A stretch of 64,000 bases of DNA from Halosolutus halophilus (lineage in GTDB: Archaea > Halobacteriota > Halobacteria > Halobacteriales > Natrialbaceae), in the NCBI RefSeq assembly GCF_022869805.1, contig NZ_CP094974.1:1488001-1552000 (forward strand), written 5' to 3'. Shown piece by piece: positions 38,544 through 63,843 of this stretch. The position numbers and the translations under genes were made by a program. The notes under the pieces were generated by a model. It saw only the letters and a program-made list of their open reading frames with translations, had not been told where the DNA came from and did no database searches. How positions within the stretch are numbered: the stretch's first letter is position 1; each line of letters starts with the position of its first letter.

Positions 38544-39245
38544 ATGTCCGACGCGCTCTACCGCGAGTATCCCGCCGTCTACGACGCGCTGTACGCCGAC
38601 AAACCGTACGACGAGGAGGTCGAATTCGTAACCGACTTCGTCGCGGCGGGTGGCCGGATCCTCGTCGTCGGCTGTGGGACCGGCGAACACAGCCGTCGAC
38701 TCCGCGATCGGGGGTACGACGTCGTCGGCGTCGATCCGAGCGAGGCGATGCTCGAACGGGCCCGGAAGAAATCCGACGCCGACTTCGTGCTGGGATCGCT
38801 CCCCGAACTACCCGTCGATGGGACCTGCGACCTGGTGTTCGTGCCGTTCACCGTCGTCAACCACCTCGAACACGGGACGGTCGACGCGAGCCTCGAAACG
38901 CTCGTCGATCGTCTCGCCCCCGGAGGAACGCTCGTTCTCGATACGATGTGGGTTCCGGAGGACGGCACCGACCTGACGCTCGGCGTCCACGAGCGGCCGG
39001 AGGGCGACTACGCTCGACTGCACCAGATCCACGTCCGGGACGTCGACGCGGGCACCTACCGGTGGGACTCGATCGTCTTCACGCCGGACGGCTCCTGGTT
39101 CGCCGACACGCACGACCTGATCGACGCTCCTGCCGAGGCGATCGTCGAACTCCTCGAGGAGCGGGGCCTGGCGGTCGAGATATACGACGGCTACCGGGAG
39201 GCCGACGGCTGGCCGGCGACGGTCGTCGTCGCCCGGCGTGAGTGA
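38544..39245 (+). CDS. SAM-dependent class I methyltransferase
   Basis: The 233-residue protein begins MSDALYREYPAVYDALYADK and has motif I in RILVVGCGTGEHSRRLRDRG, the acidic residue of strand 2 in VVGVDPSEAMLERARKK, and LPVDGTCDLVFVPFTVVNHL (motif II region). GGTLVLDTMWVP then corresponds to the post-motif strand. It lacks obvious similarity to rRNA or protein methyltransferases and resembles small-molecule types. It is followed after 45 bp by a zinc-ribbon gene. Confidence 0.87.
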   Translation: MSDALYREYPAVYDALYADKPYDEEVEFVTDFVAAGGRILVVGCGTGEHSRRLRDRGYDVVGVDPSEAMLERARKKSDADFVLGSLPELPVDGTCDLVFVPFTVVNHLEHGTVDASLETLVDRLAPGGTLVLDTMWVPEDGTDLTLGVHERPEGDYARLHQIHVRDVDAGTYRWDSIVFTPDGSWFADTHDLIDAPAEAIVELLEERGLAVEIYDGYREADGWPATVVVARRE

Positions 39246-39290
39246 TTAACCGAGACAAGAGTTATTATTCCGCAGGTTGTATGTTATCAC

Positions 39291-39428
39291 ATGCCACTCG
39301 CAGAGCCACGCGAGGACGAGTACGAGTGCGTCCAGTGTGGCCGGCGAGAGACCGCCGTCGACGCGTTGCTATCGACCTGTCGGCGGTGCGGGGGCGAGAT
39401 GCGAAACGTCGAGTTGATCCGGGAGTAG
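39291..39428 (+). CDS. 45-residue zinc-ribbon protein (rubrerythrin-like)
   Basis: The frame encodes MPLAEPREDEYECVQCGRRE, then TAVDALLSTCRRCGGEMRNV and ELIRE. Two CxxC pairs (CVQC and CRRC) spaced 14 residues apart form a zinc-ribbon or rubredoxin-like fold. A TTATTATTCC box lies about 25-30 nt before the ATG. This is the second such tiny metal-binding protein in 3 kb (see 36272-36412). Its role is unknown. Confidence 0.78.
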   Translation: MPLAEPREDEYECVQCGRRETAVDALLSTCRRCGGEMRNVELIRE

Positions 39429-39505
39429 CCGAGGTGTCGTCGTGGCCCGCGCCGATCGGGAGCGGCGCCACCGGTTTTTTGCCAGCGTTCGTGGAAGCTC
39501 GGTCT

Positions 39506-39886
39506 ATGTACAGGCTGGTCGATATCGGCGGCGTCGAGCCACGCGATCTCGAGGACGTCGATCCGTCGCTCCTCCCGATCGGACTCGAACTCCAGCCCGA
39601 TCGGATGCGCCCGAGCATCTGGCACTACGAACGAGGCGCAAAGAACACCTTTCACCGCCAGGCGGAGCAAGAGGAACTGTACGTCGTTCTCGAGGGAACC
39701 CTCGACGTGACGGTCGAACGCGAGGACGAACGCGACGTCGTCAGGATGACGAACCACGACGTCCTCGTCGTCCCGCCGGAGTCGTGGCGCCAGCTGAAAG
39801 CGGTCGAGGAAAGTCGAGTGCTCGCCGTCGGTGCCCCGAACGTCGCGGACGACGCGATCGTCGAGGACGATACTACCACGGAGTAA
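39506..39886 (+). CDS. Cupin domain protein
   Basis: The 126-residue protein is a single cupin barrel. It has the first motif in AKNTFHRQAEQEELYVVLEG (His-x5-Glu-Glu form, about residues 46-65) and the second in MTNHDVLVVPPESWRQLKA, in which the usual final His is replaced. The leading segment GLELQPDRMRPSIWHYERG is typical of haloarchaeal cupins. Metal-dependent catalysis is uncertain because the second His is missing; a binding role is possible. It converges with the actin-like/coiled-coil gene, 9 bp between stops. Confidence 0.85.
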   Translation: MYRLVDIGGVEPRDLEDVDPSLLPIGLELQPDRMRPSIWHYERGAKNTFHRQAEQEELYVVLEGTLDVTVEREDERDVVRMTNHDVLVVPPESWRQLKAVEESRVLAVGAPNVADDAIVEDDTTTE

Positions 39887-39895
39887 CGGCCCCGA

Positions 39896-42800
39896 TTACC
39901 CGTCGAACTGGGACGCAACCGCGAGCAACGCGAGTCCGAGGACTAGCACGCCGCCGCCGACGATCGGTACGCCTGCAGCCGCGACTGCTCCACCGGCGAC
40001 GACGCCGGCCCCGCCGCCGCCCGCGAGCGCCGACCTCGGGAGGGAACCCGCCCCGTCCGCGGCGCGCTGCACTTCTTCGAGGTCGGCCCGGAGAGCCTCG
40101 AGTTCGTCGGCCCGGGCCGGCGGCCCACTGCTTCCGCCGTCGACCGCCGCGAGCCGATCGTTCAGCGAGTCGACGGTGGTCGCCAGTTCGGCGACCGTCG
40201 ACTCGACCGACGATACGTCCGATTCGAGAGATCTGACGTCCGTTTCGTCGGAGATGGACGCGACCGTCGTCGTGAGGGCGTCGATCTCGGTCGATAGCCG
40301 ATCGAGCCGCGCTCCATGCTCGGCTACCTCGTTGCCGTGATCCGGCAGGTCGGCGACGGTCTCCGAGAGCCGGTCGTGGGCCGCCCGGAGCGACTCGACG
40401 TCGGTCGCCACCTCGTCGACCTCGGCTGCAACGGCGTCGACGTCGGCAGCCACCTCGTCGACCGCCGACAGGGTGCCTCGCGCCTCGAGTCGGGACGCGA
40501 GGTCGTCCGCTCGCGATTCGATCGCCTCGACGGTATCCGTGAGGTCGTCGAGGTCGGTCTCGAGGTTCGATCGAACCGCTTCGACCGTCGCCTCGGTTTC
40601 GGAGCGGACGTCGCCGATCCGGTCGTCGAAATCGTCACGCACCTCCTCGAGATCGGCACGAACGTCGCTGACGCTGTCGTCGAGATCGGCACGAATGCCC
40701 TCGGTCCGTTCGTCGACCGTCGTTTCGACCGCCCCGATGCGGTCCCGGAGATCAGCCTCGGTTTCGGCCAGTCGCTCCTCGATCGCACTCGCGTCGGCCT
40801 CGGTCGTCTCGAGGTCCGCCGTCACCGAGTCGATCATCGCTCGCTGCTCGTCGATCGACTGCCGGAGGGCCGCCACGTCGGTCCCGGTGGCAGCTTCGTC
40901 TTCGATCGCGTCCACGGAGTCGGCCAGTGCCGCGACGTCGCCCTCGAGCGCGGACACGTCGGCTGCCACCGACTCCAGAGACTCGGCCAGGTCCGCGCGT
41001 TCACCGTCGATCGTCTCGAGGTCCGCAGCGATCGCGTCGACTCGTTCGGCGTTCGCCGCATCGGCCGCGAGGTCGTCGATCCTGTCGCGCACGTCGGCGA
41101 TCGTCTCCCGGACGTCGTCGACGTCCGCTTCGACCGAGTCGGTGGCAGTCGCGAGGTCGCTCTCGACGGTCTCGACGCGATCGTCGATGTCGTCGACCTC
41201 GTCGTGGACGTCGGCGAGGCGATCGTCCGTCCGCTCCGACAGTTCGTCGAGTCGTTCCGAGACGCCCGTGATCCTGGTGGCCGCTTCCTCGAGTCGACCC
41301 GCCAGTCCGTCCACGCGCGTGCCGATCCGATCGACCTCGTCGTCGAGGGCGACGAGTTCCTCGTCGAGCCGCGTGACCGTCTCCTCGACGGCGTCGAGAT
41401 CGGATTCCGATGCAGCGTCGGCCTCGAGATCGGCCAGGTCGTCGCGTAGCGTGTCGGCCCGCTCCTCGAGCGACGCGGTTCGATCGGTGACGTCCTCGAG
41501 ATCCGTCGTGAGGTCCGTGAGCCGATCGTCGAGGGCAGCCCGGTCGTCGGCCGCGTCCGACGTCGTCTCCGAGAGCGCGTCGACCGCCGACTCGATCGCG
41601 TCGACGTCACCTTCGAGGGCGGCGAACGCCTCCGAGAGGCCATCCAGATCGTTCTCGAGGTCGTCGACGATCTCGTCGCTCGCGTGGGTATCGCTCTCCG
41701 CTTCGAGGGCGGACAGGTCGTCGGCGAACGCCTCGAGTCGCTGCTCGATCTCCTGGACCTCCTCGACCGAGGGCGATCGCTCCTCGACGTACTCGAGGTC
41801 GTCGAAGAGTCGTTCGACGTCCTCGCTGACCGCCTGGATCTCCGCGTCGCGGTTCGCGAGCCGATCGAACAACTGGTCGATCGCGTCGTCGGCCCTGTCG
41901 TGGTCTCCCGCAGCCGCGAGCGAGTCGTCGAACGAGAGCGACGTCCGGGCGTCGTCGACGTTCCCGGTCCCGCCGTTGGTCCCGATTGAGTCCGCCGTCT
42001 CGCCGCCGGCGTCGGTGGCGGACGCGGTGTCGTCCCCGGCCGGCGACTCGTTCCACGTGACGTCGTCGAACGCGTCGACGTCGTCGGCCGCTGCCGCGAG
42101 GGCCCCTCTGGCAGCGCTTGCGGCGGGTTCGTCCGCGAGCCGGACGCCGCGGATCGAGAACGGGAGGTTCCCCGCGTCGAACCGGCCACCCACGAGGTAC
42201 TCGATCCCCTCGGTTGCCCCGTCGCCGGCGACCGCGATCGGGACGGCGAGCCCCTCCTGAACGTCGCTCGCGTCCGCTTCGGCGGCGATCGCCTCGACCA
42301 GTTCTCCGACGAGCGCGTCGTGAGCCGCTGCGATGGCGCTCTCGATTCCGCCGGTGGCCGCCTCCGGATCGAGGACGAACTCCTCGAAGACGGCCGCGAC
42401 CTCGGATCGAGGCTGGTCCGTCTCACTGGCCGCCCGCTGGACGATCCACTCGCTGCCTTTCGCGAGCGAGAAGGCGAGCACCGGGACGCCGTAGTAGGAG
42501 AGTGCGACGCTCGTCGTCTGGGATCCGATGCAGACGCCGAGCCCGGTGTAATTGTCCGCTGCGAGTTGATCGTAGACGACGGCGAAGCCCTTGCTGACCG
42601 GAGTCGCCCCGGACGCCCGCTCCGCGAGGGCGGACGTGACGGCATCGCGGTGTGCGTCCTCCGGTTCGGGGGCGTCGACCACCGTACCGGGCGTCGTATA
42701 ACAGAGTGGGCCGCTCACCGAGTCCCCCAGCAGGTCGGCAACGACGGCTTCCAGCGCAGGTGCCGCGTAGCCGTCCGTGACGAGCAGGCCGTTCGAGAAC

Positions 42801-43036
42801 AGCGGTTCCGGCGTCTCCCCCGTCGCGTCGGCGACGGTCCGCGCGTCCGACCCCACGACGTACGTCGTCCCGTCCCGATCGACGGTCCGGGCGTCACCCC
42901 CAGCGAGTCCCGCCGCCTCGAGCGTCGATTCGTCGGCGGGGAGGACGATCGGCGGCACCGACTCGATCGACGGGTCCTCCCCGGTACCGGTGGCCGACCG
43001 GATCGCCTCTGGTCCGATATCGAGACCGTATCCCAT
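39896..43036 (-). CDS. Actin-like ATPase domain fused to a long coiled coil with a C-terminal membrane anchor
   Basis: The 1046-residue protein has three parts. Residues 1-320 look like an actin/Hsp70/MreB-superfamily domain: phosphate-1 loop GYGLDIGPEAIRSA (2-15), a connect-1-like helix SKGFAVVYDQLAADNYTG, phosphate-2 loop GLGVCIGSQTTSVALSYYG (165-183), and an adenosine-type segment PIAVAGDGATEGIEYLVGG (266-284), followed by AARGALAAA. Residues about 380-1000 are heptad-rich Asp/Glu/Ala/Leu coiled coil. The last 40 form a Gly/Ala-rich hydrophobic segment (VLVLGLALLAVASQFDG), a tail anchor. A cytoskeletal or envelope scaffold is the likely role. Haloarchaeal actin homologues (volactin) make this family known in outline, but this fusion is not one I recognise. 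Confidence 0.72.
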   Translation of the reverse strand: MGYGLDIGPEAIRSATGTGEDPSIESVPPIVLPADESTLEAAGLAGGDARTVDRDGTTYVVGSDARTVADATGETPEPLFSNGLLVTDGYAAPALEAVVADLLGDSVSGPLCYTTPGTVVDAPEPEDAHRDAVTSALAERASGATPVSKGFAVVYDQLAADNYTGLGVCIGSQTTSVALSYYGVPVLAFSLAKGSEWIVQRAASETDQPRSEVAAVFEEFVLDPEAATGGIESAIAAAHDALVGELVEAIAAEADASDVQEGLAVPIAVAGDGATEGIEYLVGGRFDAGNLPFSIRGVRLADEPAASAARGALAAAADDVDAFDDVTWNESPAGDDTASATDAGGETADSIGTNGGTGNVDDARTSLSFDDSLAAAGDHDRADDAIDQLFDRLANRDAEIQAVSEDVERLFDDLEYVEERSPSVEEVQEIEQRLEAFADDLSALEAESDTHASDEIVDDLENDLDGLSEAFAALEGDVDAIESAVDALSETTSDAADDRAALDDRLTDLTTDLEDVTDRTASLEERADTLRDDLADLEADAASESDLDAVEETVTRLDEELVALDDEVDRIGTRVDGLAGRLEEAATRITGVSERLDELSERTDDRLADVHDEVDDIDDRVETVESDLATATDSVEADVDDVRETIADVRDRIDDLAADAANAERVDAIAADLETIDGERADLAESLESVAADVSALEGDVAALADSVDAIEDEAATGTDVAALRQSIDEQRAMIDSVTADLETTEADASAIEERLAETEADLRDRIGAVETTVDERTEGIRADLDDSVSDVRADLEEVRDDFDDRIGDVRSETEATVEAVRSNLETDLDDLTDTVEAIESRADDLASRLEARGTLSAVDEVAADVDAVAAEVDEVATDVESLRAAHDRLSETVADLPDHGNEVAEHGARLDRLSTEIDALTTTVASISDETDVRSLESDVSSVESTVAELATTVDSLNDRLAAVDGGSSGPPARADELEALRADLEEVQRAADGAGSLPRSALAGGGGAGVVAGGAVAAAGVPIVGGGVLVLGLALLAVASQFDG

Positions 43037-44498: not shown

Positions 44499-46010
44499 AT
44501 GTCCGAAACCGGGGCGGAGTCCCGTCCACTGGTCCGACAGCTTCCCGACCCGACGGCAGCGTCGAACGTGCTGTACAACCCGTCGTTGTCCGAGCTTCGT
44601 GATCTCGCCGCGGCCGACGAGACGACGACCGAGTTCGGGTCGCCGTCGTACGTCAGCGAGTACCGCTCTCGGAGCGCCGATCGGACGAAAAACACCGTCG
44701 ACCACGAGTTCACCGAGCGTGATCACGAACTGGTCGACGACGCGATCGACGCCGCCGCCGATCGCGAACTGGTTTGCGTCGATCGACTCATGGGCCGCCA
44801 TCCCGACGCCACCTTCTGCTGTCGCCTCTACGTCCCCGTCGATTACGCCCGGATTGCCCTCGCGTGGGCGAACCTGTTCGAACCCATCGACGGGCGCGAA
44901 CCGGACCTCTACACGCTCCAGTTACCGGACGCCGACGAGACTGCGATCCGCGTCTTCCCGGAAGAGGGGGTCACGACCGTAGTAGGCAGTGACTACACCG
45001 GCGAAGCCAAGAAGTCGTTCCTGCGGCTGTTCATGTACCGCATCAAGCAACGCGGCGGCCTCGGTCTCCACGCTGGAAGCAAGCGCGTCCGCGTGCGCGA
45101 CGTCGACGGCGAGATGCGCATCGTCGGGCAGGTCTTCATGGGACTGTCCGCGACCGGCAAGTCAACCCTGACCTCCCACGGCTGCTGGCTCGAGGAGCCC
45201 GAAGACGCCGTCATGTTGCAGGACGACGTCTGTGGACTCCTCCCGGACGGCTCCGTCGCCGGCAGCGAGGGGAAGGGCCTGTTCATCAAGACGATCGGCC
45301 TCGACGCCGACGAACAGCCGGAACTCTACGGGGCTGCGACCGACGAGTCGGCGATCCTCGAGAACGTCGCCGTCGACGAGGACGGCACCGTCGACTTCGA
45401 CGCGGACCGATACACCGCGAACTCCCGGGCGATCGTCCAGCGAGACGAACTCGCGAGCGCCGACGAGGAGATCGACCTCGATCGGGTGGATCAGATCTTC
45501 TTCATCACACGGAACCCGCTGATGCCCCCGGTCGCCAGACTGACCGTCGACCAGGCCGCCGTCGCCTTCATGCTCGGCGAGTCGATCGAGACCAGTGCGG
45601 GCGATCCGTCCCGCGCCGGGGAGTCGATACGGGTCGTCGGCACGAACCCGTTCATCATCGGTTCGGAGGGTGCCGAGGGGAACGTCTTCCGAGACCTGAT
45701 CGAGACGCTCGACGTCGACTGTTACGTCATCAACACGGGGTGTCTCGGCGACGAATCGAAAGACGTCGGCGTCGAGGAATCGGTCACGATCCTCACCGAG
45801 GCCGCTCGCGGCACGATCGAGTGGACCGACGACGAGCGAACCGGCCTGACGATCCCCGAGACCGTCCCGGGCATCGACGTGGGTGAGTACTACGTCCCCG
45901 ATCACGTCGACGACTACGACGAGGCGGTCGCGGAGCTACGGGCCGAACGCCGGGCGTACCTCGAGGAGTTCGACGAACTCCGCGAAGAGATCAGAGACGC
46001 GGTCTACTGA
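44499..46010 (+). CDS. pckA: Phosphoenolpyruvate carboxykinase (ATP)
   Basis: PEP carboxykinase converts oxaloacetate plus ATP to phosphoenolpyruvate, the entry to gluconeogenesis. The 503-residue protein has the P-loop variant QVFMGLSATGKSTLTSHGCW (Gly-Leu-Ser-Ala-Thr-Gly-Lys-Ser), the metal-binding DDVCGLLPDGSVAGSEGKGL, and TRNPLMPPVARLTVDQAAVA, all at the expected spacing for the ATP-dependent enzyme. Its Ala in place of Gly in the loop is a mild variant. The N-terminal 40 residues are lineage-specific. A single-gene transcript with a TATA box about 29 nt upstream of the ATG. Confidence 0.93.
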   Translation: MSETGAESRPLVRQLPDPTAASNVLYNPSLSELRDLAAADETTTEFGSPSYVSEYRSRSADRTKNTVDHEFTERDHELVDDAIDAAADRELVCVDRLMGRHPDATFCCRLYVPVDYARIALAWANLFEPIDGREPDLYTLQLPDADETAIRVFPEEGVTTVVGSDYTGEAKKSFLRLFMYRIKQRGGLGLHAGSKRVRVRDVDGEMRIVGQVFMGLSATGKSTLTSHGCWLEEPEDAVMLQDDVCGLLPDGSVAGSEGKGLFIKTIGLDADEQPELYGAATDESAILENVAVDEDGTVDFDADRYTANSRAIVQRDELASADEEIDLDRVDQIFFITRNPLMPPVARLTVDQAAVAFMLGESIETSAGDPSRAGESIRVVGTNPFIIGSEGAEGNVFRDLIETLDVDCYVINTGCLGDESKDVGVEESVTILTEAARGTIEWTDDERTGLTIPETVPGIDVGEYYVPDHVDDYDEAVAELRAERRAYLEEFDELREEIRDAVY

Positions 46011-46437: not shown

Positions 46438-47442
46438 ATGAACGCACGCAAATTACTCGCCGTAACAGTCGTACTGATGATGCTCGCGAGCGGGGGCGCA
46501 TTCGCGATGGCCCCGGCTGGCGCAGTCGCAGATCAACACGAAGACGACGAGGTACAGGAACCCACGGAAGACGGCGTCGACGATAGCCAACTGCAGGTAA
46601 CGGTCGAAGACGCGACGATCGTTCTTCTTACTGAGGACAGCGAGATGGCCGACGAAGCGCCCGCGGACGTAGCGAACAACGAGTCCGCCGTCGACGGCGA
46701 CCAGGAGGGCGTCACGGTCCTCGAAACGTCGATCGAGGTAACGGTCGAGCAGGCGTCGATCCTCAACGTCGGTGACCAGTCAACCGACGCGGCCGCGGAC
46801 GCAAACGGCGTCGACTCGGACGATACGACCGACGACGATAGCGAGAGCGACGACGCTGCCGACAGCCAGGAACTCTCCGTCCAGGAAGCGACGATTTTCG
46901 TCGTCGTCGAAGACGGCGACGACCAGTCGGCCGACGCGAACGGGGTCGAAGACGGACAGGCGATGGACTTCCAGGAGGCGACCGTCTTCGTCCTCGTCGA
47001 AGACGCCGGCGAGATGCTCGACGATCAGCCGATCGGGATGGAAGACGATGCCACCGAAGACAACGAGTCCGACGCAGTGGACGCCGAAGACAACGAGTCC
47101 GACGCAATAGACGACGGAGACGAACTCGACGAGAACGCATCCGAAGTCGAGAACGGCGAAGACGGACTGCAGGTGACGATCGAGGAAGCGACGATCTTCA
47201 TCGTCTTCGAAGACGGCGACGACCAGGCAGCCGAGGAACCGATCGCTGAGGACGACGAACCCGTCGTCGACGATAACGAGACTGACGTCGACGATAACGA
47301 GACTGACGTCGACGATAACGAGACCGTCGTCGACGATAACGAGACCGTCGTCGACGACAACGAGTCCGAAGTCGACGACAACGCCACCCAGGACGACGAC
47401 GCTGAAGCAGCGGTTTCGACGTCCTGTAGCTGTACCGGGTAG
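46438..47442 (+). CDS. Secreted acidic protein with repeated beta-type motif and Cys tail
   Basis: The 334-residue product has a Sec signal (KLLAVTVVLMMLASGGAFAM). Five similar segments follow: LQVTVEDATIVLLTED (about residue 51), the degenerate VEQASILNVGD, SVQEATIFVVVEDGDD, MDFQEATVFVLVEDAGE and LQVTIEEATIFIVFEDGDD. These are separated by acidic linkers with NES/NET sequons that could be N-glycosylated. Near the end are six 7-residue repeats of VDDNETx (about 47268-47380). The protein ends SCSCTG, with two Cys. Function unknown; a surface or matrix protein is likely. GGAGG lies only 1 nt before the ATG. Confidence 0.75.
   Translation: MNARKLLAVTVVLMMLASGGAFAMAPAGAVADQHEDDEVQEPTEDGVDDSQLQVTVEDATIVLLTEDSEMADEAPADVANNESAVDGDQEGVTVLETSIEVTVEQASILNVGDQSTDAAADANGVDSDDTTDDDSESDDAADSQELSVQEATIFVVVEDGDDQSADANGVEDGQAMDFQEATVFVLVEDAGEMLDDQPIGMEDDATEDNESDAVDAEDNESDAIDDGDELDENASEVENGEDGLQVTIEEATIFIVFEDGDDQAAEEPIAEDDEPVVDDNETDVDDNETDVDDNETVVDDNETVVDDNESEVDDNATQDDDAEAAVSTSCSCTG
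47268..47380 (+). repeat. 21-bp coding repeats (VDDNE units)
   Basis: Units built on GTCGACGATAACGAGACTGA-like words repeat with a 21-bp period about five times within the secreted repeat protein gene, and earlier a pair of GAAGACAACGAGTCCGACGC units occurs near 47056. The unit length equals seven codons, so expansion or contraction keeps the frame. Confidence 0.7.
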
Positions 47443-59003: not shown

Positions 59004-60157
59004 CGATCGAACCGTCAGATCGCGTGAAGGCGGTCCCGCCGTCGGGCATCCGGCGGTTTTTCGAGATCGCCGAGGAGCGCGACGAGGTCATCTCGCTGGG
59101 CGTCGGCGAACCCGACTTCTCGACTCCGTGGGCCGCACGGGACGCGGCGATCACCTCGCTGGAACAGGGCAAGACCTCCTACACCGCGAACCGCGGGAAA
59201 CGCGAACTCCGGGAGTCGATCGCGGACTACGTCGCCGATCGGTTCGACCTCGGCTACGACCCGGCCGAGGAGATCATCGTGACCGCCGGCGCGAGCGAGG
59301 CGGTCGACCTCGCATTCCGGGCGTTCGTCGATCCCGGCGACACGGTCGCGATCGCACAGCCGTCGTACATCTCCTACGAACCCGGCGTGATCTTCGCCGG
59401 CGGCGAGGTGCTGCCGGTCCCCACGAGAAAGGAGGACGAGTTCCGACTCACCGTCGAGGAACTCGACGCGGCGGGTGCGGCCGACGCCGACGTGCTCGTC
59501 GTCTGTTACCCCAACAACCCGACGGGTGCGATCATGCGCGAGGAAGACCTCGAACCGATCGCCGACTTCGCCCGCGAGCACGACCTCACGGTCTTCTCGG
59601 ACGAGATCTACGCCGAGTTGACCTACGACGGGGATCACACGTCGATCGCGACCGTCGACGGCATGCGCGAGCGGACGATCGTCTTCAACGGGTTCTCGAA
59701 GGCCCACGCGATGACCGGGCTTCGGCTGGGATACGCGCTCGGGCCCGCCGACGCGATCGGCGCGATGAACAAGATCCACCAGTACGCGATGCTGTCGGCC
59801 CCGACGACGGCCCAGTACGCGGCCCTCGAGGCACTGGATTCTTGCGAGAACGACGTTCGCGAGATGGTCGACCAGTACGATCGCCGTCGCCAGTTCGTTC
59901 TCTCGCGGTTCCGCGAGATCGGGATGGACGTCTTCGAGGCGAAGGGAGCGTTCTACTGTTTCCCCGAGGTGCCCGAGGGCTTCACCGCGGAGGAATTCGC
60001 GGAAGATGTCCTCCGCGAGCAGGGGGTCGCCGTCGTCCCGGGTGACGTCTTCGGCGTCGGTGGCGAGGGACACCTCCGGATCTCCTACGCGACGGGTCTC
60101 GAGGACCTCCGCGAGGCGCTGACCCGGATCGAAGCCTTCGTCGCGGAACACGCCTGA
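59000..60157 (+). CDS. Class I/II PLP-dependent aminotransferase
   Basis: The 385-residue protein belongs to aminotransferase fold type I: VISLGVGEPDFSTPWAARDA, SYTANRGKRELRESIADYVA, VTAGASEAVDLAFRAFVDPG, VVCYPNNPTGAIMREEDLEP, DEIYAELTYDGDHTSI and the PLP lysine in IVFNGFSKAHAMTGLRLGYA. These match the aspartate/aromatic/alanine aminotransferase subgroup of archaea; the exact substrate is not readable. Translationally coupled to the upstream Lrp regulator by a 4-nt overlap. Confidence 0.93.
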   Translation: MTIEPSDRVKAVPPSGIRRFFEIAEERDEVISLGVGEPDFSTPWAARDAAITSLEQGKTSYTANRGKRELRESIADYVADRFDLGYDPAEEIIVTAGASEAVDLAFRAFVDPGDTVAIAQPSYISYEPGVIFAGGEVLPVPTRKEDEFRLTVEELDAAGAADADVLVVCYPNNPTGAIMREEDLEPIADFAREHDLTVFSDEIYAELTYDGDHTSIATVDGMRERTIVFNGFSKAHAMTGLRLGYALGPADAIGAMNKIHQYAMLSAPTTAQYAALEALDSCENDVREMVDQYDRRRQFVLSRFREIGMDVFEAKGAFYCFPEVPEGFTAEEFAEDVLREQGVAVVPGDVFGVGGEGHLRISYATGLEDLREALTRIEAFVAEHA

Positions 60158-60262
60158 ATCGCTGATTCGCCGTTCGATCGACGGCCTGCGTGACCGCCGG
60201 TGGTCCAGCGCGGCTGGCAGGAGTATCACGAACGTTTTCTCGATCGGCCCGCATTCGTGCGT

Positions 60263-61483
60263 ATGGTCGACTATCGTCCGCTCACCGACGACGGGGACGT
60301 CTTCCACGAGTACCGCAGTTACGCCTTCACGCCCCAGGAGGGGGTCCCGGCGTACGATCCCGACGAGCACGACACGCCACGATCGACCCTCGGGGCGCGT
60401 CGGGGACTCTACGAGCACGCGGACGACGAACGGCCTCGCTGTGTCTGTCGACACTACTGGCTCGAGGCCCGCGTTCGCGGGGAGCCCCACGCGACGGCCG
60501 GAATCGCGTCGATCGCCACCCCGCCCGAGTATCGCCGGGAGGGCTACGTTCGCCGGCTTCTCGCACACTCCCTCGCCGAGTATCGCAACCACGGCGTCAG
60601 GTTCTCGGTCCTCTGGCCGTTCCGGTACCGCTTCTACCGGCAGTACGGCTGGGACGCCGCCAACCGGATCGTCACCCACGAGTGCGATCCCGACGTGCTC
60701 TCCTTCGCCGCTGCGAGCGACGCTCGGGATCGGGGATCGTTCCGGCCGGTCGACCCCGACGAGTACGACGCGATCGAACCCGTCTACGACGAGTGGGCCG
60801 ACCGCCACGCGCTCGCACTCGAGCGCGACGAGGACTGGTGGCGCCACCGCGTCTTCGGCGGCCACGACGTCGATCCGTTCGTCTACGCGTACGAACGGGA
60901 CGGCGAGCCGCGGGGGTATCTCGTCTACACGATCGACGGCGATCACGGGGAGCGGACGATGGACGTCACGGAACTGGCAGCCGTCGATCGCGAGGCGGTC
61001 CGCGCACTCCTGTCGTTCTGTTACGATCACGACTCGCAGGTCGATCGGGTCCGGTTCCGGATGCCGGAGAACGACCTCCTGCGCGCGGACGCGGCCGATC
61101 CCGACGAGATCGATACGACCGTCGAAACGGGACCGATGGTCCGGATCGTCGACGTCGAAGCGACCCTGTCGGCGCTGTCCTATCCCTCCCTCGATCGGAC
61201 CCTCACGCTCGCAGTCGAGGATCCGCTGGTCGACTGGAACGACGCCGCCGTCTCGCTCGAGGTGGCGGCTGGGCGCGCCGCGTGCGAGCGGATCGACGCC
61301 GCGGCCGCGGACGAACCGGACGTGACGCTCGACGTGGCCACGCTCTCGCAACTCGTCGTCGGGGCCCGATCGGCCGCGACCCTCGATCGGCTGGGTCGAC
61401 TCGAGGGCGCAACACCGGACGCGGTCGCGACGCTCGGGGACCTGTTTCCCGAACGGGACGTCTACCTCGGGGAGTTCTTCTGA
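60263..61483 (+). CDS. GNAT-family acetyltransferase, Eis-like
   Basis: The 406-residue protein has an N-terminal GNAT domain with the acetyl-CoA signature GIASIATPPEYRREGYVRRL, followed by LWPFRYRFYRQYGWDAANRI. A second GNAT-like domain (YAYERDGEPRGYLVYTIDGD) and a C-terminal sterol-carrier-like domain ending TLGDLFPERDVYLGEFF follow. This is the three-domain layout of Eis proteins, which acetylate amines including aminoglycosides. The ATG at 60263 is chosen over an in-frame GTG at 60200, whose extension is weakly coding-like. Convergent with the FAD oxidase gene. Confidence 0.87.
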   Translation: MVDYRPLTDDGDVFHEYRSYAFTPQEGVPAYDPDEHDTPRSTLGARRGLYEHADDERPRCVCRHYWLEARVRGEPHATAGIASIATPPEYRREGYVRRLLAHSLAEYRNHGVRFSVLWPFRYRFYRQYGWDAANRIVTHECDPDVLSFAAASDARDRGSFRPVDPDEYDAIEPVYDEWADRHALALERDEDWWRHRVFGGHDVDPFVYAYERDGEPRGYLVYTIDGDHGERTMDVTELAAVDREAVRALLSFCYDHDSQVDRVRFRMPENDLLRADAADPDEIDTTVETGPMVRIVDVEATLSALSYPSLDRTLTLAVEDPLVDWNDAAVSLEVAAGRAACERIDAAAADEPDVTLDVATLSQLVVGARSAATLDRLGRLEGATPDAVATLGDLFPERDVYLGEFF

Positions 61484-61485
61484 AC

Positions 61486-62661
61486 TCAGACGACGTTCCG
61501 CTCGGCGTGCTCGTCGCCCGACTCGAACCGATCGCTCGAGAGCGCGTCGACGTCGACGAGCGACGCCTCGCCGTCGACGGCGAGCTCCGCGACGACCTGT
61601 CCGGTCGCGGGCGCGTGCTGGAAGCCGTGGCCGGAGAAGCCGGCGGCAGTAATGAAGCCGGGAACGGTCTCCTCGACGATCGCGTTGTCGTCCGGCGTCA
61701 CGGCGTAGAGCCCCGCCCAGCCGCGCTTGATCCGCGATTCCGGGCCGAAGTAGGTCGTCCACTCGCTTGTTTTCTCGACGACGTCGGCGGCCCAGTCGAA
61801 CTCCATCTGCGTCACGTAGCCGTCGGGATCGCGCTCCGGATCGTCGCTGGCGAGGTGGCCGCCGACGAGGGCGTCGCCGCCGCGATCGGGCCGGAAGTAC
61901 GTTCCCGTCCCGAGGTCGATCGTCAGCGGATCCGTCTCCGGGACGGCCGTTTCCGGATCGACGACGGCGATCTGGCGTCGCTTCGGCGCGATCGGCAGCG
62001 AGACGGCGGCCAGTTCGGCGACCTGCCCGGCCCACGGTCCCGCGGCGTTGACGACGAAATCGGCATCGAGTCGACCGTCGAGTGTCTCGACGCCCGTCAC
62101 CCGCCCGTCGCGATCGGCACTGGCGCTGGTCCCGTCCTCGCGGTGGACGTCGATAACGGGCGTCCTCGTCCGAACGTCGACCCCCGCGTCGGCCGCCGCC
62201 CGGGCGTAGGCCTGTAACGCGAGGTGCGGATCGGCGAACCCGTCCGTTTCCGAGTACGTCGCCGCGACGAACCGCTCCGGATCGATCCCGGAACAGTACT
62301 CTCGGGCCGCGTCGGGATCGAGCACCTCGCTCGGGACGCCGCGATCGTTCTGCATTGCGACCGCGTCCTCGAACGCCGCGGCAGTCTCGTCGGACCGGGC
62401 GAGAAAGAGATACCCCGTCTTCCGGTAGTCGATGTCGGTCCCGAACCGCTCCGTGAACTCGTTCCAGACGCGCATACTCTCGCGGGACAGGTCGACGTTG
62501 ACCGGCGTCGAGAACTGCGCACGGATGCCGCCCAGCGCCCGTTCGGTGCTTCCGCCGCCGATCGACCCCTTCTCGCAGACGGTCACGTCGACGCCGCGGT
62601 TTGCCAGTGCGTACGCGCTCGAGAGGCCGACGATGCCGCCGCCGACCACGATACCGTGCAT
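61486..62661 (-). CDS. FAD-dependent amine/amino-acid oxidase-like oxidoreductase
   Basis: The 391-residue protein has an N-terminal Rossmann motif GIVVGGGIVGLSSAYALANR followed by VTVCEKGSIGGGSTERALGG, a FAD-binding glycine-rich loop. Later FVVNAAGPWAGQVAELA and the C-terminal GFSGHGFQHAPATGQVVAEL are the DAO-family signatures. Relatives oxidise D-amino acids, glycine or sarcosine. Together with the next gene, a paralog on the same strand 78 bp upstream, it suggests a pathway for amines or D-amino acids. Substrate unknown. Confidence 0.9.
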   Translation of the reverse strand: MHGIVVGGGIVGLSSAYALANRGVDVTVCEKGSIGGGSTERALGGIRAQFSTPVNVDLSRESMRVWNEFTERFGTDIDYRKTGYLFLARSDETAAAFEDAVAMQNDRGVPSEVLDPDAAREYCSGIDPERFVAATYSETDGFADPHLALQAYARAAADAGVDVRTRTPVIDVHREDGTSASADRDGRVTGVETLDGRLDADFVVNAAGPWAGQVAELAAVSLPIAPKRRQIAVVDPETAVPETDPLTIDLGTGTYFRPDRGGDALVGGHLASDDPERDPDGYVTQMEFDWAADVVEKTSEWTTYFGPESRIKRGWAGLYAVTPDDNAIVEETVPGFITAAGFSGHGFQHAPATGQVVAELAVDGEASLVDVDALSSDRFESGDEHAERNVV

Positions 62662-62739
62662 ACGATACCAATCGACACGGCCGGAGAAAAGGGTTCGTTC
62701 GAGACCGCGATCGGACGGCGGAATCGATCTCTACAGGCG

Positions 62740-63843
62740 TCAGAACCGATCGGGTGAGAGTCGATCGTGGACGTCGGGATCGGGCCGGTCGTCGATCTCC
62801 TCCTGGACGACCGCGGCGACGGCCGGCGCGAGCGTGATCCCCAGTCCAGTCATCCCACAGGCGACGACGAACCCGTCGACGGCCGTCTCGCCGACGATCG
62901 GACGCCCGTCCGGCGTAACCGTCCGGAGACCGATCCACGCGTCGACGACCGACGCGTCCGCGAGCGCGGGGACGACGCTCGCCAGTTCGGGCGCCGAGTC
63001 GACGAACTCCTCCGAGACCGAGAGGTCGTCCGGGTCGTACCGTTGCCCCTCCACGTACGTCGTCAGGAACTCCCCGACCCACGCCCGCGTTCCGTCAGCG
63101 TCGACCGCGGGCCGTACGTACCGATTCGACTCGAAAATCGTGACCGGCGCGTCGATCGGTTCGACCGCCTCGAGTTCGACCATCGGCCCCTGCGTGTGAC
63201 AGAGCGGAAGCGAGACGCCGACCGCCTCGTTCAGGCGCGGTGCCCAGGGCCCCGCCGCGTTGACGACGACGTCCGCGTCCGCGCTTTCGTCGTCGGTCAC
63301 GACGCTCGAGACGGCCCCGTCGGTCGTTTCGACGTCCGTGACCGTGACCCCCGTTCGGACGTCGACGCCGTTTCGGCGTGCACGGTCGGCAAAGGCCGTC
63401 GCGATCGCTGCCGGATCGTCACAGACGGTATCGGCGGGCGTGGAGAGTGCACCGGCGAACCCCGCGGGTTCGACGCCGAATTCGGCCAGATCGGTCGCCT
63501 CGACGAACGACGCGTCGACGCCGTACTCCCGGAGCGTCGTCGCCGATCCGGCGAGTCGATCGGCGAAAACGGGCGTCTCGGCCACGTACAGCGCACCCAG
63601 TCGCTCCACGTCCAGCGACTCGGCCTCGAACAGATCCCGGTAGACCGATCGCGCTCGCGCTCGCATCCGCAGGTCGAACGGGTCCGGTTCGACCGCGGTC
63701 CGCATCACGATTCCCGCGGAGGCCGCCGTCGTTTCGCGGCCGATCTCCGATCGTTCGAGCAGGGTTACGTCGTGGCCGGTCTCGCCCAGCCGCGACGCGA
63801 TTGCGGTGCCGACGATCCCTCCCCCGACGATGACGACGTTCAT
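62740..63843 (-). CDS. FAD-dependent amine/amino-acid oxidase-like oxidoreductase, paralog
   Basis: The 367-residue protein begins MNVVIVGGGIVGTAIASRLG, then HDVTLLERSEIGRETTAASA, the FAD-binding loop of the DAO family. VVVNAAGPWAPRLNEAVG and the C-terminal FVVACGMTGLGITLAPAVAA also match. It is clearly related to the preceding gene by motif but diverged throughout. Both are on the minus strand, so transcription likely runs from here into 61486. The ATG at 63843 is the family start. Divergent from the ornithine cyclodeaminase-like gene at the window end. Confidence 0.9.
   Translation of the reverse strand: MNVVIVGGGIVGTAIASRLGETGHDVTLLERSEIGRETTAASAGIVMRTAVEPDPFDLRMRARARSVYRDLFEAESLDVERLGALYVAETPVFADRLAGSATTLREYGVDASFVEATDLAEFGVEPAGFAGALSTPADTVCDDPAAIATAFADRARRNGVDVRTGVTVTDVETTDGAVSSVVTDDESADADVVVNAAGPWAPRLNEAVGVSLPLCHTQGPMVELEAVEPIDAPVTIFESNRYVRPAVDADGTRAWVGEFLTTYVEGQRYDPDDLSVSEEFVDSAPELASVVPALADASVVDAWIGLRTVTPDGRPIVGETAVDGFVVACGMTGLGITLAPAVAAVVQEEIDDRPDPDVHDRLSPDRF

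Follow-up and report, generated by a model that had tools for sequence, protein, structure and literature searches.

How actin filaments of archaea are attached to the membrane is a standing question, and the locus described here raises a narrower one: does a single chain in Halosolutus halophilus link an actin-like head to a membrane anchor by way of a long coiled-coil rod, and what could such a protein do in an organism whose genome also encodes an ordinary archaeal actin? The protein is encoded in the window, by which we mean the whole stretch of 64,000 nucleotides that was analysed (contig NZ_CP094974.1, positions 1,488,001 to 1,552,000). Its head belongs to the same family as volactin of Haloferax volcanii (VolA, HVO_2015, PF25216), which one volactin paper, in the passages of it considered here, calls the sole identified actin homologue of that species. 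Among volactins, dynamic filaments in cells have been shown for HVO_2015 only (PMC10869688). According to the passages of that paper that concern filaments, they span the cytoplasm and touch the membrane by their tips only, and in those passages no membrane anchor for the tips is named. The passages considered from the main volactin papers within our search describe no rod-bearing form, though one may have been described elsewhere. The proteins themselves are already in sequence databases and Pfam already names the head.

A conserved gene for a three-part protein

The open reading frame lies at 39896..43036 on the minus strand, with its ATG at 43036 and its stop at 39896, and encodes 1046 amino acids; we call its product long volactin. 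From the N-terminus it consists of a head, a disordered linker, a neck motif, an acidic heptad coiled coil of about 600 residues and a glycine-zipper hydrophobic tail (Table 1). This architecture recurs without stops across dozens of genomes, with head identities of 43-86%, which argues that the gene is under constraint; it is a genuine, conserved gene. Two open frames of 595 and 603 amino acids, which lie over it in other frames, were taken as high-GC artefacts. The first-pass annotation, made from the letters of the window alone, had proposed one chain that carries an actin-like head on a long coiled-coil rod, with a membrane anchor at its C-terminus. That composite, with an actin-fold head and a predicted anchor, stands as a unit conserved in many genomes, and among the long-form homologues none was found that lacks both the phosphate loops and the coiled coil. 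Judging from the pattern of identity across 11 full-length relatives (Table 1), the head, the neck and the tail look functional and the rod looks like a spacer. The full-length AF2 model is of low confidence (pLDDT 58, pTM 0.29) and was used for the extent of helix only.

Table 1. Features of long volactin in the window, with mean identity to the window protein among 11 full-length relatives
Feature	Residues	Position in window	Strand	Mean identity	Basis
Volactin-family actin-fold head	1-321	42074..43036	-	57%	PF25216, AF2, Foldseek
Phosphate-1 loop, YGLDIGPEAI (motif GYGLDIGPEAIRSA = 2-15)	3-12	43001..43030	-		Asp6 conserved
Lys149 at the place of the catalytic Glu (MamK E143)	149	42590..42592	-		profile alignments
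Phosphate-2 loop, GLGVCIGSQTTSVALSYYG, altered	165-183	42488..42544	-		alignment
Adenosine-type segment (PIAVAGDGATEG = 266-277), altered, AGD for GGT	265-277	42206..42244	-		alignment
Acidic unconserved linker, predicted disordered	322-366	41939..42073	-	20%	mean identity; pLDDT <40
Conserved neck motif, LSFD...DDAIDQLFDRLANRDAEI	367-402	41831..41938	-	61%	mean identity
Acidic coiled-coil rod	403-995	40052..41830	-	30%	heptad periodicity; AF2 helices; 21-bp repeats
Glycine-zipper hydrophobic tail	1003-1046	39899..40030	-	48%	mean identity; hydropathy

The head is a divergent volactin

The Pfam model Volactin (PF25216) matches residues 1-316 at E 6e-120, with 400.9 bits against a curated cut-off of 35 and with all of the model covered (1-321/321), so that the head aligns with volactin end to end; NCBIfam gave no match to the head, and apart from PF25216 every Pfam or NCBIfam match falls within the rod. 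The best of five AF2 models of the head, built from 13 aligned sequences, has a pLDDT of 87 and a pTM of 0.88 and displays the two-lobed actin fold, with the caution that the other four models scored 60-71. When this model was compared with the PDB by Foldseek, the first match was MamK (5ljv, E 1.4e-12, TM 0.67), followed by MreB and actins; there were 647 matches at E <0.001, and the best 50 of the 647 are MamK, MreB, actin and PilM. Sequence identity to MamK and MreB, the best structural matches, is below 20%. A sequence search of solved structures with the long-form profile returned nothing meaningful, and it was the short-form profile that reached MamK and gave the correspondence of residues used below. 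The head is thus an actin fold by structural modelling, and its assignment to the family is far beyond chance, in agreement with the actin-like head first proposed from its motifs. In four Natrialba loci the alignment shows low-complexity insertions in the head of the long form, between phosphate-1 and phosphate-2.

The same genome (5.06 Mb, one contig) encodes a second, ordinary volactin of 340 amino acids, 33% identical to the head of the long form. The complete short volactins that we retrieved have 336-371 amino acids, carry neither rod nor membrane tail, and are strikingly conserved among haloarchaea. Short volactins of about 340 residues thus differ from the 1046-residue protein in having no rod or tail and in keeping the catalytic glutamate, which the long form has lost. 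The first-pass proposal can be refined accordingly: the head is a divergent paralogue of volactin itself, and the genome keeps its ordinary volactin as well. Salactin of Halobacterium salinarum is also a haloarchaeal actin homologue (PMC10746226), but it differs from long volactin in being a protein of its own, whose N-terminal tail is disordered and whose role lies in DNA partitioning. Weak matches to PF25216, of 23-31 bits, occur in many genomes and may represent the salactin family.

An altered active site

The three motif-like segments singled out in the first-pass annotation are present, namely phosphate-1 GYGLDIGPEAIRSA, phosphate-2 GLGVCIGSQTTSVALSYYG and the adenosine-type segment PIAVAGDGATEG, and phosphate-1 alone among them is near intact. 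Its Asp6 is found in 44/46 long forms of the family and in 5/5 other long forms (49/51), and in 47/47 short volactins. In phosphate-2 of the window protein a glycine has become Q173 (GSQ vs GAG), with T175 and the YY pair conserved, and across the long forms this region has a conserved pattern of its own, GxCIxxQTTSVALxYY. The adenosine segment is without its GG.

ATPase activity is reported to be abolished when E143 or D161 of MamK, or their equivalents in other actins, are mutated (PMC5059902). Aligned with MamK over 270 residues, the short-volactin profile has a Glu at the place of E143 and a Ser at that of D161, and in the alignment of long and short profiles these two places are occupied by K149 and C169 of the window protein. 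Among short haloarchaeal volactins 47/47 have the catalytic Glu, as do the 11 methanogen volactins read in frame; among long forms it is 0/51, with K, T, R, S, Q, A or P instead. Asp at the place of D161 occurs in just one of the 51. With the glutamate missing from all 51 long forms, it is unlikely that the head works as a normal ATPase. It would rather be a pseudo-ATPase, maybe still binding nucleotide, and the retention of Asp6 in nearly all long forms makes nucleotide binding without normal hydrolysis possible. It should be noted that short volactin itself is without the phosphate-2 Asp, having Ser instead, and still makes dynamic filaments, so that the loss of ATPase activity in the long form is something we infer; the motif logic of MamK may carry over to volactins incompletely. 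The nucleotide switch that had been attributed to this head is accordingly doubtful, given K149 in place of E143, a position that is never Glu in the 51 long forms, together with Q173 and the lost adenosine GG.

Neck, rod and tail

The neck has the consensus DDAIDQLFDRLANRDxEI and is as highly conserved as the head; it is present in most long forms of the family and absent from five divergent ones, described below. Beyond it, heptad-rich sequence had been noted over about residues 380-1000, and a coiled coil in this region is borne out in three ways. The hydrophobic periodicity peaks at 3.4-3.6 residues with a power of 16.5, against 8.8 for the 99th percentile of shuffled sequences, and a period of about 3.4-3.6 is found across the 51 long-form homologues. 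AF2 gives, at low confidence, a near-continuous helix over residues 378-994, and at the DNA level the rod contains tandem repeats of 21 bp, or seven codons, which amount to copied heptads. The number of residues between head and tail ranges from 206 to 893 across the 51 long forms; by simple arithmetic (0.15 nm per residue), about 600 residues of straight helix would extend to about 90 nm. In profile searches the rod also drew matches to SMC, Rad50, laminin, baculovirus PEP and DUF7310, which we regard as generic hits expected from any long heptad sequence; those of the SMC/Rad50 type fall below the family cut-offs. Crescentin and the Sph/SMC-like proteins of haloarchaea have a long heptad rod in common with long volactin, and its profile matches to them are of this generic kind; none of these coiled-coil proteins is known to carry an actin-fold head.

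Hydropathy windows with a mean above 1.6 cover residues 1008-1044 (37 residues), and no other window anywhere in the protein exceeds this value, which agrees with the hydrophobic tail reported initially. The tail is made of two glycine-rich hydrophobic segments with invariant glycines, a stretch that would be enough for one membrane helix, possibly two. A second copy of the tail was searched for in the same genome, and the tail was found at long volactin only. Because the protein has no other membrane-like segment and the head begins at residue 1, the head should be cytoplasmic.

Distribution and origin

With E <1e-62 against the long-form head as threshold, the long form was found in 86/125 Natrialbaceae genomes (20/29 genera), once per genome, in open frames of 649-1564 codons; its holders include Natrinema, Natrialba, Halovivax, Halopiger, Natronococcus and Natronorubrum. 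At the same threshold, 392 genomes of the order gave no long form outside Natrialbaceae. A search with the family model, run on genomes with a second hit, brought up five genomes from two other families whose long forms are divergent and have 780-909 codons. About 30% of Natrialbaceae are without the long form; some of these hold only the short gene even at a permissive threshold and seem truly to lack the long one. Where genomes were screened with the family model, holders of the long form carry a short volactin gene as well, which is frameshifted in one and partial in one draft. In genome G402 the short and the long gene both seem split by frameshifts (C3:599079-600040 and C3:674556-675505), which appear to reflect either sequencing error or a real loss of both.

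In the volactin tree the long forms make up one side of a branch that separates them from all short volactins (support 99-100); the tree was built by a quick method and has long branches, which makes the position of the five divergent long forms uncertain. In other classes of the phylum the open frames of short volactins all have 326-371 codons; the catalytic Glu is retained there, and none has a rod. We therefore take the short form as ancestral, and the rod-and-tail form is taken to have arisen once. Concerning a viral origin, long volactin had no match in PHROGs. Plasmid matches were seen at 33-34% identity, the same level as for the short volactin.

A possible tether for volactin filaments

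The reading that we prefer, with a probability of roughly 0.4, is that long volactin is a pseudo-volactin tethered to the membrane, where it would bind, cap or nucleate volactin filaments and keep them attached. A short volactin gene would have been duplicated, and the copy would have acquired the neck, the coiled-coil rod and the C-terminal membrane tail, while its active site was altered and normal ATP hydrolysis probably lost. The tail would keep the protein in the cytoplasmic membrane; the rod would dimerise and hold the actin-like heads out in the cytoplasm, at a reach of up to about 90 nm, where the paired heads might bind, cap or nucleate the ordinary volactin filaments of the same cell, whose ends would thereby be fixed to the membrane. 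More tentatively, a catalytically dead actin paralogue may here have become a dedicated anchor or nucleator of actin filaments at the membrane, with an adjustable spacer of coiled coil, uniting in one molecule an actin, a rod and a membrane linker that elsewhere are distinct proteins. MreB is membrane-binding and has as its partner MreC, a coiled-coil protein of the membrane; long volactin differs from MamK and MreB in joining head, rod and anchor in one chain and in being without the catalytic residues.

A tether is favoured by the tip-only contact of volactin filaments with the membrane, by the loss of the catalytic Glu in the long forms and by the freedom of the rod to vary in length between conserved ends, as expected of a spacer. 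Co-occurrence with short volactin says little, since short volactin is common in the group, and the absence of the long form from about 30% of Natrialbaceae, together with its metabolic neighbours, speaks against. In Haloferax volcanii the filament tips reach the membrane, yet a single PF25216-type actin is reported there in the passages on that species; the long form is thus not a general anchor, since the tips are attached in its absence.

Alternatively, the long forms might be a filament system of their own, in which the heads self-polymerise and the rod and tail build a sheet or scaffold bound to the membrane, shaping the envelope independently of ordinary volactin. The fold of the head, nearest to the filament-forming MamK and MreB, the conserved rod and membrane tail and the retained Asp6 would suit this idea, but the catalytic Glu, the phosphate-2 glycine and the adenosine GG are gone, and a filament would be expected to become crowded if every subunit carried a rod hundreds of residues long; we regard it as less likely. 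The conserved neck motif could also bind a partner other than volactin, and the rod does match SMC/Rad50-type coiled coils in profile searches, so a tether from the membrane to the nucleoid or to a protein has to be weighed, with the degenerate head as a binding module for DNA, the S-layer or the division machinery. Such a tether is unlikely, however: the coil matches are generic and under the family cut-offs, DNA-binding and ATP-cassette domains are absent in profile searches, and the neighbours tested include no conserved partner gene. As for an active ATPase with an altered site, whose nucleotide binding and hydrolysis would switch head states that are relayed along the rod, we consider it improbable. 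The phosphate-1 Asp is kept in 49/51 and the new phosphate-2 pattern is unlike random decay, but Glu occupies the catalytic place in 0/51, and Asp the other place in one long form only.

If the preferred reading of a pseudo-volactin tether is true, archaeal actin paralogues can turn into inactive accessory parts, as actin paralogues did in the actin-related proteins of eukaryotes. A conserved second volactin with a rod and anchor of its own offers, for the membrane attachment of archaeal actin filaments, a single-gene candidate that can be tested family-wide.

Gene neighbourhood

The nearest genes of long volactin encode a cupin, a MOSC protein, a phosphoenolpyruvate carboxykinase-like protein and an MFS transporter; they are metabolic and partly retained, and a functional link based on an operon was dropped for this reason. 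Across 50 related loci, no conserved partner gene was found among the neighbours tested. The cupin-domain gene (39242-39886, plus strand) stands tail to tail with long volactin, their ends 10 bases apart. Upstream and divergent is the phosphoenolpyruvate carboxykinase-like gene (44499-46010, plus strand; NF006821, E 3e-196), which is near long volactin in 24/50 loci. Farther away, a 1355-codon open frame without Pfam match (59015-63082, minus strand) overlaps an aminotransferase gene on the opposite strand and is probably a high-GC antisense artefact. The window also encodes, at 46438-47442 on the plus strand, a very acidic protein that is predicted to be secreted; its N-terminus is signal-like, it contains DDNETxV repeats (21-bp tandem repeat, about six copies), and its gene is near long volactin in only 2/50 related loci.
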